DNA of 64,000 nucleotides, from contig CANRMF010000001.1 of the NCBI GenBank assembly GCA_947631665.1, positions 44,707 to 108,706 on the forward strand, written 5' to 3'. Numbering within the stretch: position 1 is the first letter of the stretch; the number at the start of each line of letters is the position of its first letter. Below are positions 18,735-60,966 of the stretch, piece by piece. Source of the DNA: an uncultured Lachnospiraceae bacterium (GTDB lineage Bacteria; Bacillota; Clostridia; Lachnospirales; Lachnospiraceae). Both the position numbers and the translations under genes were made by a program. The notes under the pieces were generated by a model, which had not been told where the DNA came from, searched no databases, and saw nothing but the letters and a program-made list of their open reading frames with translations.

Positions 18735-18788
18735 CTCTATTTCAAAAAAATTCTCTATTTCAAAAAAATTCTTTATTTCAAAAAGATA
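18735..18788. repeat. Three tandem copies of an 18-bp unit
   Basis: CTCTATTTCAAAAAAATT x2, then CTTTATTTCAAAAAGATA. Confidence 0.9.
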
Positions 18789-29702: not shown

Positions 29703-32339
29703 TTATAATTGCTTTTCAAGAATTTCTTTTGCCGCTTTCACTGCCGCATCAGCGCCCGCAGGATTTTTTCCGCCCGCCTGAGCCATGTTCGGACGTCCGC
29801 CTCCACCTCCGCCGACAAGTTTTGCGATTTCCTTAATCATATTTCCGGCATGAGCGCCTTTTGCAACGGCGTCGTCGTCTGCCATTACAAGGACGTTTGC
29901 CCTGTCTGCATTTGTCGAAACAAGCACCAGAACGCCGCCGCCCATTTTTTCTTTCAGATTGTCACCTAAGTTCCTCAACTCGTTCATATCGACATCAGAA
30001 ACTTTTAAGGCGAGCAGTTTCACGCCGGAAACCTCTGTCACCTGATTGAGCGCATCGCCCACTGAAGCGTTTGCCATCTTCGCTTTCAGTTTCTCATTTT
30101 CGCCGGACAGCAATTTGATTTCATCTGTCATGCTCTGGATTTTCTTTACCAATTCCGACGGAGTGGTTTTTGCCGCTTTTGCTGCCTGAAGCAGTTCGCG
30201 CTCAAGCTGCGCATAATATTTTAACACGCCGTTGCCGGTCAGCGCCTCAATTCTCCGCACGCCGGCTGCAACGCCTGACTCAGAGATGATTTTAAAAGAA
30301 GAAATCACGCCGGTGTTTGATACATGCGTACCGCCGCACAGTTCAATCGAATAATCTCCCATAGAAACCACGCGGACAACATCGCCGTATTTTTCTCCAA
30401 ATAACGCCATCGCTCCTGTTTTTCTTGCTTCTTCGAGAGTCATCTCTTTGGTCTCAACGTCAAGTCCGTTTGCAATCTGCTCGTTGACAAGCGCTTCGAC
30501 CTTTTCAATTTCCTCTTTTGTCATCGCCTGAAAATGGGTAAAGTCAAAACGGAGCCTGTCTGCATCTACATATGAACCTGCCTGCTCGACATGTCCTCCC
30601 AATACAAGCTTTAAGGACTTTTGAAGGAGATGGGTTGCGCTGTGATTTTTTGCCGTATCGCCACGTCCGATGGAATCCACTTTCAGCGTCACCTGATCTC
30701 CCGTCTGGAACATGCCGCTCTCAACAACGCCGATATGGCCGATTTTATTTCCGGGAAGTTTAATGGTCTCCGATACATGGAAAGTACCGTTTTCGCTCGA
30801 AATAACGCCGCAATCGCCTACCTGTCCGCCCATCGTCGCATAAAACGGCGTCCGTTCGACAATAATGGTTCCGCGATCTCCTTCTGCCAGCGCCTCAGCC
30901 ACTTCGTCCTCCGTCGTAAGCGCAATAATCACTGAATCTTCAATCAGGCGGTCATAGCCGACAAATACAGAATTTAAGTTGGTGTCAAGCTGTTCGTAAA
31001 CGGTAGCGTCAGCCCCCATATAATTCGTTTTTTTGCGGGCTTTTCTGGCAGTTTCCTTCTGCACGTCCATCGCCTTCTGGAATCCTTCTTCGTCCACCGT
31101 ATATCCTTTTTCCGCCAGAATTTCTGCGGTCAGATCCAGTGGGAAGCCAAATGTGTCATACAGTTTAAATGCTTCTTTTCCGGATAAAACTTTTTCGCCG
31201 GACTGCGCTAAATCCTTTTCAATTTCAGAAAGCATTTTCAACCCGGTGTCAATCGTTTTGTGGAATTTATTTTCTTCTTCGGTAAGCACCTTGAAAATCA
31301 TATTTTTCTTTTCTTCAAGTTCCGGATAACCGTCTTTAGAGCCCTCGATGACAATCTCGGACAGACCGGCAAGAAACTGGTCGTTTACGCCCAGTAATTT
31401 TCCATGCCTTGCAGCCCTGCGGATCAGTCTTCTCAGCACGTATCCCCTTCCCTCGTTTGACGGCATAATACCGTCAGAAATCATAAAGGTTGCCGAACGG
31501 ATATGGTCTGTAATAATCCGGATAGAAACGTCCCACTGATATTCCTTTTTATATTCTTTTCCGGAAAGCCGGCAGACATGGTCTCTCAGCGGCTTAATCG
31601 TGTCGACGTCAAAGATAGAATCAACGTCCTGTACCACGACGGCAAGACGTTCCAGCCCCATACCGGTGTCAATGTTTTTATTTTTTAAGGTTTCATAATG
31701 TCCTTTGCCGTCATTTTCAAACTGCGTAAAGACATTGTTCCAGATTTCGATATAACGGTCGCAATCGCACCCTACGGTACAATCCGGTTTTCCACAGCCG
31801 TATTTTTCACCGCGGTCATAATAAATCTCGGAACATGGCCCGCAAGGCCCTGCGCCATGCTCCCAGAAATTATCCTCTTTGCCAAAACGGAAAATCCGCT
31901 CTTTTGCAATGCCCATTTCTTTGTGCCAGATATCAAACGCCTCGTCGTCTTCCACATAGACAGACGGGTATAATCTGTCTGCATCTAAGCCGACTGTTTC
32001 GGTTAGAAATTCCCATGACCAATGGATTGCCTCTTTCTTAAAGTAATCTCCAAACGAGAAATTTCCGAGCATTTCAAAAAACGTGCCATGACGCGCCGTT
32101 TTTCCGACATTTTCAATGTCGCTGGTACGAATACATTTCTGGCATGTTGCCATTCGTGTGCGCGGCGGGATTTCCTGCCCCGTAAAATATGGTTTTAACG
32201 GAGCCATTCCCGCATTGATTAAAAGCAGGCTTTTATCGTTATGAGGAACTAAAGAATAACTTCCTCTCACTAAATGGCCTTTGGACTCAAAAAAATCTAA
32301 AAACATCTTGCGAAGTTCATTTAAACCATACTGTTTCAT
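29703..32339 (-). CDS. alaS: Alanyl-tRNA synthetase
   Basis: MKQYGLNELRKMFLDFFESKGH...; ELCGGTHVSNTG; start trimmed to MKQYG. Confidence 0.97.
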   Translation of the reverse strand: MKQYGLNELRKMFLDFFESKGHLVRGSYSLVPHNDKSLLLINAGMAPLKPYFTGQEIPPRTRMATCQKCIRTSDIENVGKTARHGTFFEMLGNFSFGDYFKKEAIHWSWEFLTETVGLDADRLYPSVYVEDDEAFDIWHKEMGIAKERIFRFGKEDNFWEHGAGPCGPCSEIYYDRGEKYGCGKPDCTVGCDCDRYIEIWNNVFTQFENDGKGHYETLKNKNIDTGMGLERLAVVVQDVDSIFDVDTIKPLRDHVCRLSGKEYKKEYQWDVSIRIITDHIRSATFMISDGIMPSNEGRGYVLRRLIRRAARHGKLLGVNDQFLAGLSEIVIEGSKDGYPELEEKKNMIFKVLTEEENKFHKTIDTGLKMLSEIEKDLAQSGEKVLSGKEAFKLYDTFGFPLDLTAEILAEKGYTVDEEGFQKAMDVQKETARKARKKTNYMGADATVYEQLDTNLNSVFVGYDRLIEDSVIIALTTEDEVAEALAEGDRGTIIVERTPFYATMGGQVGDCGVISSENGTFHVSETIKLPGNKIGHIGVVESGMFQTGDQVTLKVDSIGRGDTAKNHSATHLLQKSLKLVLGGHVEQAGSYVDADRLRFDFTHFQAMTKEEIEKVEALVNEQIANGLDVETKEMTLEEARKTGAMALFGEKYGDVVRVVSMGDYSIELCGGTHVSNTGVISSFKIISESGVAAGVRRIEALTGNGVLKYYAQLERELLQAAKAAKTTPSELVKKIQSMTDEIKLLSGENEKLKAKMANASVGDALNQVTEVSGVKLLALKVSDVDMNELRNLGDNLKEKMGGGVLVLVSTNADRANVLVMADDDAVAKGAHAGNMIKEIAKLVGGGGGGRPNMAQAGGKNPAGADAAVKAAKEILEKQL

Positions 32340-32406
32340 CTTATTTCCTCCAAATCTGTATCTTTCGGGGAGGAGCCTCCTCGAAAACACTGCGAATTAC
32401 CAAATT

Positions 32407-33633
32407 TTAATCTGCTTTTACCTGATGGTAAGATTTTTTCCCTTTCTTTAACAAAAGTACTCCGTCCTCATTGAAATCGGCAGTGGTAAAGACTGCGTCA
32501 ATCGAAGTTACTTTTTCACCGTTGACGGAAACGCCGTTTTGCGCGACTAATCTTCTGCCTTCGCCGCGTGACGCCGCAAGTTTTGTGTCCGTTAAAAGGG
32601 TTAAAATATCTTTTCCTGCGTCCAACTCTGCTTTCGCATAAACCGTCGTCGGGATATCTCCTGAAACGCCGCCGTTTTTAAAGATATTTTTGGAGGTTTC
32701 CTCCGCCTTTTTTGCTTCTTCTTCTCCATGAACCAGATTGGTCAGCTCATAAGCGAGAATTTCTTTCGCTTTATTGAGCTCGCTGCCCTGCCATGATTCC
32801 ATTGCCTCGATTTCTTCTATCGGTAAAAACGTCAGCATTTTCAAACATTTGATTACGTCTGCGTCGTCGACATTTCTCCAGTACTGGTAAAAATCGTATG
32901 GAGATGTTTTTTCAGGGTCGAGCCAAACAGCGCCGGAAACTGTTTTTCCCATCTTTTTGCCTTCGGAGTTTAGCAACAGCGTAATCGTCATCGCGGAAGC
33001 GTCCTCTCCCAATTTCCGACGGATCAACTCTGTACCTCCAAGCATATTGCTCCACTGGTCGTCGCCGCCAAACTGAAGATTACAGCCGTAATCCTGAAAT
33101 AATTTATAAAAATCGTAACTTTGCATAATCATATAGTTAAATTCCAGAAAACTGAGTCCTCTCTCCATTCTCTGTTTATAACATTCCGCAGTCAGCATAC
33201 GGTTCACACTGAAGTGCGCGCCAACCTCCCGCAGCAGTTCTATATAATTCAAATCAAGCAGCCAGTCCGCATTGTTGACCAAAAGTGCTTTTCCATCTGA
33301 AAAATCCACAAATTTGCTCATCTGCTTTTTAAAACAGTTTACATTATGCTCAATCGTCTCTTTTGTCATCATCTGCCGCATATCGGTTTTGCCTGACGGA
33401 TCGCCAATCATCGCCGTTCCGCCGCCAATCAGCGCTATCGGCTTATTGCCTGCCATCTGCAATCGCTTCATCAGACAAAGCGCCATAAAATGACCGACAT
33501 GCAGACTGTCCGCCGTCGGATCAAATCCGATATAAAATACTGCCTTTCCATGATTGACTAAATCCCTGATGCGTTCTTCGTCCGTCACCTGCGCAATCAG
33601 TCCCCTTCTCTTTAAATCTTCGTAGATATTCAT
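32407..33633 (-). CDS. tyrS: Tyrosyl-tRNA synthetase
   Basis: YIGFDPTADSLHVGHFMAL; KMGKT. Confidence 0.97.
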   Translation of the reverse strand: MNIYEDLKRRGLIAQVTDEERIRDLVNHGKAVFYIGFDPTADSLHVGHFMALCLMKRLQMAGNKPIALIGGGTAMIGDPSGKTDMRQMMTKETIEHNVNCFKKQMSKFVDFSDGKALLVNNADWLLDLNYIELLREVGAHFSVNRMLTAECYKQRMERGLSFLEFNYMIMQSYDFYKLFQDYGCNLQFGGDDQWSNMLGGTELIRRKLGEDASAMTITLLLNSEGKKMGKTVSGAVWLDPEKTSPYDFYQYWRNVDDADVIKCLKMLTFLPIEEIEAMESWQGSELNKAKEILAYELTNLVHGEEEAKKAEETSKNIFKNGGVSGDIPTTVYAKAELDAGKDILTLLTDTKLAASRGEGRRLVAQNGVSVNGEKVTSIDAVFTTADFNEDGVLLLKKGKKSYHQVKAD

Positions 33634-60358: not shown

Positions 60359-60400
60359 GTAGATATTTTCATATATATTTGTAAAAAAAGTAAATTGCGT

Positions 60401-60844
60401 ACATAAAAATCCTATGCAAAACATGAGTGGGAAGTAAAATTACATGCTATTTTGTGTAAATGGGTGAATTCTGCATGTAAAAATCCTATGAAAAATGTGA
60501 GTGGGAAACAAAATTACATGCTTTTTTGTGTAAATGAGTGAATTTTGCATGTAAAAATCCCATGTAAAACATGAGCTGGAAACAAAATTACATGCTTTTT
60601 TCTGTAAATGAGTGAATTTTGCATGTAAAAATCCCATGAAAAATATGAGTGGGAAACAAAATTACATGCTTTTTTCTGTAAATGGGTGAATTCTACATAT
60701 AAAAATCCTATAAAAAGTATGAGTGGAAAATAAAATTACATGCTTTTGTGTGTAAATGAGTGAATTTTGCATGTAAAAATCCCATGAAAAGTCTGAGCGG
60801 GAAATAAAATTACATGTATTTTTGCTTAAAAATGTAAAAAATAC
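60401..60844. repeat. Tandem repeat, six units with exact 74-bp period; seventh, degenerate unit begins at 60845
   Basis: Units start at 60401, 60475, 60549, 60623, 60697, 60771, 60845; substitutions only, no indels. Confidence 0.97.
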
Positions 60845-60870
60845 ATGTAAAAGCCCTCCGCAGAGTATGC

Positions 60871-60933
60871 AAGCCGGACAAAATTACATGCAGACCGGAC
60901 GAAATTACATGCAAGCCAAACGAAATCACATGG
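60871..60933. repeat. Three tandem 21-bp units continuing the 74-bp array
   Basis: AAGCCGGACAAAATTACATGC / AGACCGGACGAAATTACATGC / AAGCCAAACGAAATCACATGG. Confidence 0.93.
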
Positions 60934-60937
60934 AAAT

Positions 60938-60966
60938 TTGCAACTTCAATCTAATAATGTTAAAAT
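60938..60966 (+). promoter_or_regulatory. tmcAL promoter
   Basis: TTGCAA-N17-TAAAAT about 60 nt upstream of the ATG. Confidence 0.72.

Follow-up and report, generated by a model that had tools for sequence, protein, structure and literature searches.

The intergenic region between pta and tmcAL in the window, that is, in the whole 64-kb stretch of DNA analysed here, contains a tandem array for which Tandem Repeats Finder reports a period of 74 bp (5.7 copies) and, at its right end, another repeat of 21 bp. The decamer AAATTACATG, to which a preliminary description of this DNA had drawn attention, is present exactly at 60437, 60511, 60585, 60659, 60733, 60807, 60881 and 60902, with the variant AAATCACATG at 60923, as stated there. 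However, the "seven 74-bp steps" of that description were miscounted, because seven copies make six 74-bp steps, which are followed by two 21-bp steps. The decamer forms the left arm of a block of 41 bp, TTACATG-N27-CATGTAA, and successive blocks are joined by a 33-bp linker. Overlooked at that stage were the inverted second arm, CATGTAA, that closes each 41-bp block, the extension of the array back to a decayed block in the same register (about 60367 to 60406), and the occurrence of the same structure at at least 14 further sites in the same genome. The features of the locus are as follows.

60367 to 60406, no strand assigned: decayed leading block (TTTCATA...TACATAA), in register, with a gap of 33 bp to the first intact block, in agreement with the block layout of other arrays
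60440 to 60480, no strand assigned: block 1, TTACATGC-N25-GCATGTAA
60514 to 60554, no strand assigned: block 2
60588 to 60628, no strand assigned: block 3
60662 to 60702, no strand assigned: block 4, with one mismatch in the right arm (CATATAA)
60736 to 60776, no strand assigned: block 5
60810 to 60850, no strand assigned: block 6, the most palindromic block of the array, with 14-bp perfect inverted arms TTACATGTATTTTT / AAAAATACATGTAA
60440 to 60850, no strand assigned: helically phased AA/TT region with the strongest 10.5-bp periodicity in the 64-kb window
60884 to 60933, forward strand: decayed right end, with a left arm at 60884 in the 74-bp register, the right arm lost, and 21-bp direct duplications at 60905 and 60926
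60938 to 60966, forward strand: tmcAL promoter-like site TTGCAA-17-TAAAAT, outside the element; the sister species keeps this site without the array

The tightening from 74 to 21 bp toward the promoter, which had been taken as a property of the ladder, is a local duplication in the decayed right end of the window array, and it is seen in none of the other arrays inspected. The genome to which the window belongs (G000; 2.0 Mb in 74 contigs, 94% complete) contains 70 copies of AAATTACATG versus 13 of the reversed control, and 88 matches to TTACATG-N26-28-CATGTAA versus none to the reversed pattern, and a chance origin is therefore excluded. Nearly all decamer copies are clustered at 73-75-bp steps on many contigs, and exact copies elsewhere in the genome do not exceed background, with about six scattered matches. 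At least 15 dispersed arrays, a count to be read as a minimum, with 98 blocks are located in unrelated intergenic regions of this genome, and contig C5 carries an additional decayed mini-array. The arrays of this species possess 4 to 11 blocks, normally with a block at either end. The block length is 41 bp in 87 of the 98 blocks, 40 bp in 10 and 42 bp in one, and the linker is 33 bp in 70 and 34 bp in 13 of the 83 linkers. The 74-bp unit corresponds to seven helical turns and bears inverted 7-8-bp arms, TTACATGY ... RCATGTAA, the centres of which lie 34 and 40 bp apart, a non-integer number of turns. Inside one array, entire units resemble each other; different arrays have no more in common than the arms, a TTT at the centre of the block (positions 21-23) and the A/T tracts. 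Recombinase-type inversion of block interiors was not seen in the aligned blocks inspected by eye.

The congener G011 (uncultured Lachnospiraceae bacterium Lapin-014 bin14; 84% complete) contains 63 blocks, and nine of its arrays are orthologous to arrays of G000, lying at the same sites as assigned by flanking genes; the genomes of the genus that were studied closely are draft or metagenome assemblies. Over these nine arrays, identity is 100% at block positions 1-6 and 36-41 and 99% at position 21, whereas the interior (positions 8-34) averages 67-81% identity per array pair. The earlier view that a short core is the selected part is thereby upheld, but the selected unit is not the decamer AAATTACATG itself; it consists of two inverted arms, TTACATR(Y)/(R)YATGTAA, set in DNA with phased A/T tracts. 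At position 8, following the core, C falls genome-wide from 62% in G000 to 4% in G011, while the GC content of interior plus linker is equal (0.343 and 0.344, respectively), a pattern that would be expected of arms read by one shared trans-acting factor. Copy numbers vary between orthologous arrays (e.g., 4 versus 8), and the pta-tmcAL and cobW-lexA gaps contain an array in G000 and none in G011; because some arrays have been gained or lost between the sister species, no single array is essential. An extra G011 array is located beside an orthologous array (L056:2771-3182 versus L012:3457-3689) at a place where G000 has none, and arrays are therefore gained or lost locally.

The same geometry with both arms changed is found in G022, G190 and G531 (TTACATA/TATGTAA), in G012 (TTACACG/CGTGTAA) and in G519 (TTACGTA/TACGTAA). 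The block-to-block steps in G519 are about 73, 65, 64 and 64 bp, near whole turns, so that the helix face is kept even where the step changes by almost a full turn. In most species of the genus, arrays with the TTACATG core are absent or reduced to remnants. Arrays are rare in the sampled genomes (order, 296 genomes; family, 397; class, 392); no convincing array was found outside the family among the sampled order and class genomes, the class-wide search giving scattered single matches without the architecture. A match in Campylobacteraceae was rejected as a lone match that forms no array of this kind. Searches of plasmids, phages and viral contigs gave no array copies, and no description of a 74-bp repeat family or of the core sequence was found in the literature.

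The AA/TT spectrum of the arrays has a peak at 10.5 bp. When harmonics 2-14 of each array's own period are ranked, the seventh (10.57 bp) ranks first in 27 of 28 arrays, and masking of the arms leaves it first in 24 of them, compared with 9% for tandem copies of random flank 74-mers. The 28 arrays include orthologous pairs and are thus not all independent. The A/T tracts are centred near unit positions 1, 11, 21, 31, 42, 54, 63 and 73. The 10.5-bp signal of the window array is 9.7, against a mean of 0.53 and a maximum of 3.2 in the remainder of the 64 kb; the segment with this highest value outside the array is located at about 32251-32650. The 10.5-bp power also lies above that of the flanks in G190, G531 and G519, and the signal is absent from the G022 array. 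Phased A-tracts curve DNA, and the phased A/T tracts of the arrays probably make their DNA curved. The arms are under sequence-specific constraint, their geometry is held across species and genera, and the DNA that carries them is helically phased.

The array-bearing gaps of G000 comprise six convergent, eight co-directional and one divergent gap (that of the window), and the arrays mostly adjoin at least one gene 3' end. Their neighbours, which include genes for CorC-like, NFACT, flavodoxin, sigma factor, Pth, PRPP synthetase-like, ATP synthase subunit, UDG and LexA proteins, are functionally unrelated and share no common function; the arrays as a set are linked neither to a particular gene function nor to tmcAL. 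An operator ladder for tmcAL (or pta), as which the window array had initially been read, is accordingly hardly tenable. The last AAATTACATG-type copy does end at 60932, 5 bp upstream of the -35-like TTGCAA (60938), and this proximity of a half-site to the hexamer is what speaks for an operator, but the G011 pta-tmcAL gap holds TTGCAACTT...AATAATGTTAAAAT and no array; the link to tmcAL fails because the promoter is retained there without the array, and the remaining arrays stand beside unrelated genes. No TTACATG block was seen upstream of tmcAL in the other genus members of which the upstream region was inspected. Functionless satellite DNA that grows by slippage and unequal crossing-over could produce both the differing copy numbers of orthologous arrays and the homogenised units inside arrays; nevertheless, it is improbable, because without selection the arms would decay at the same rate as the interior, and here the arms are invariant over otherwise diverged arrays, the spacing is fixed to ±1 bp, and the A/T tracts keep their helical phase in almost every array. 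Transcription of the arrays into RNA hairpins, with the inverted arms as stems, would be consistent with arms that change together between species and with folding of either strand better than shuffles (z about -4), but the strands fold equally well, as in any inverted DNA repeat. The arrays also fall outside the known structured RNA families, with no Rfam match and with within-array arm covariation that is not above shuffles, except weakly at position 14, while G.U and C.A counts are similar at positions 7-8 (22 versus 15 and 27 versus 19). Moreover, the outer six pairs are nearly invariant, which points to sequence recognition, and RNA hairpins are thus a very improbable account.

Non-autonomous mobile or selfish repeats, the arms of which would be sites of a transposase or recombinase encoded elsewhere, as in REPINs or IS21-type multi-site ends, are unlikely but are retained as an alternative because arrays have been gained and lost and the cores are species-specific. 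The change of these cores on both arms, the presence or absence of arrays between sister species, the extra G011 array in a neighbouring gap and the occurrence of two copies within a nested inverted-repeat element in G531 would all fit mobility. On the other hand, at least nine arrays occupy sites shared by the two species, target duplications are not visible, plasmid, phage and viral-contig copies were not found, and phased A/T tracts are needless for mobility. REP and BIME-2 arrays, and REPINs with their RAYT, are regularly spaced, dispersed intergenic elements that are species-specific and thought to co-evolve with a protein (PMC2817692, PMC3116915). The present arrays are likewise dispersed and intergenic, with alternating orientation and variable copy number; in contrast, they lack a 20-40-bp palindromic hairpin with a GTAG/GGAG-type head, possessing instead 7-8-bp arms about 27 bp apart and a 74-bp, seven-turn period with phased A/T tracts. 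The Y1 transposase RAYT (PF01797) is absent from the array-rich genomes G000 and G011 and present in G190 and some array-free relatives, and a RAYT/REP identity was rejected because the transposase is missing from array-rich genomes. IS21-like elements in the same bacterial family have end arrays of short TTAC../..GTAA sites, which resemble the present arrays and count in favour of mobility, but their period is 24 bp, their consensus is different, and they adjoin an IstA-like gene on sequence inspection; no transposase, including IstA/IstB, was present among the array-adjacent genes tested by Pfam. These 24-bp TTACC..GTAA arrays (L116, L119, L123 and L125; G590, G347 and G295) constitute a separate family, which by appearance represents IS21-type ends. 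The 60-75-bp repeat period and the presence of a "repeat" block at both array ends are reminiscent of CRISPR; however, the linkers of any one array are almost the same as each other, where CRISPR spacers are unique, what repeats is a pair of 7-8-bp arms, and the genes tested next to arrays include no cas genes.

A platform with many protein-binding sites on curved DNA would most simply explain the constancy of the inverted arms and of their spacing, the period of whole turns, the phasing of the A/T tracts, the clustering, and core shifts that affect whole species. The arrays are therefore proposed, with a probability of roughly 0.55, to be curved multi-site platforms for a predicted protein that co-evolves with the arms, and most likely to serve the topology or organisation of the chromosome. 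Speaking against this reading are the gain or loss of arrays between the sister species, the scarcity of arrays with the TTACATG core in the genus, the missing 10.5-bp signal in G022 and the spacing of the arm centres, which does not fit whole turns. The predicted protein would recognise a specific sequence, probably as a dimer or oligomer, and may bind the blocks cooperatively and bend or wrap the intrinsically curved DNA, and each array could thereby form one nucleoprotein platform of 300-800 bp. The specificity of this putative protein would have changed together with the arms. Its role at these intergenic sites would most likely concern chromosome topology or organisation, comparable to that of BIME/gyrase sites or of centromere-like arrays. 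Low-copy plasmid centromeres such as F sopC are multi-site protein platforms built of tandem repeats, about 40-75 bp long, that carry inverted recognition sequences. The arrays share the tandem repeats and the inverted recognition sequences with sopC-type centromeres but, unlike parS/sopC, number at least 15 on a chromosome, and no ParA/ParB-type operon was found by Pfam adjacent to arrays among most of the array-adjacent genes of G000 and nearby genes in four other genomes. DNA gyrase binds BIME-2, and its 130-bp motif has a phased G/C variation of about 10 bp, which is taken to favour wrapping, with many sites downstream of transcribed genes (PMC6379681). The helically phased A/T content of a strong gyrase site is matched here by AA/TT at 10.5 bp, AA/TT steps alone having been scored; the arrays differ from the gyrase motif in their invariant sequence-specific arms and continuous phasing. 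By this analogy, a link to gyrase or to nucleoid organisation may be suggested. A further, tentative possibility is a satellite system in which a dedicated protein of fast-changing specificity wraps curved units of seven turns into platforms resembling nucleosomes or centromeres at about 15 intergenic sites, with protein and arms co-evolving by species.

Few sequence-encoded wrapping or organising sites are known in bacterial chromosomes. The present family joins invariant inverted arms and phased A/T tracts, at a fixed seven-turn period and at defined positions, with a species-variable core. The role of helical A-tract periodicity in prokaryotes has been described as unclear (PMC3940949), and a discrete, removable site family with an expected cognate protein could make this question testable.

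Two minor observations were also made. A three-block array of G531 lies within an intergenic element with nested inverted repeats, about 770 bp long, which is present at at least two sites (L138:5082-5850 and L140), and an 18-bp tandem repeat, CTCTATTTCAAAAAAATT, with 2.8 copies is located at 18735-18784 of the window.
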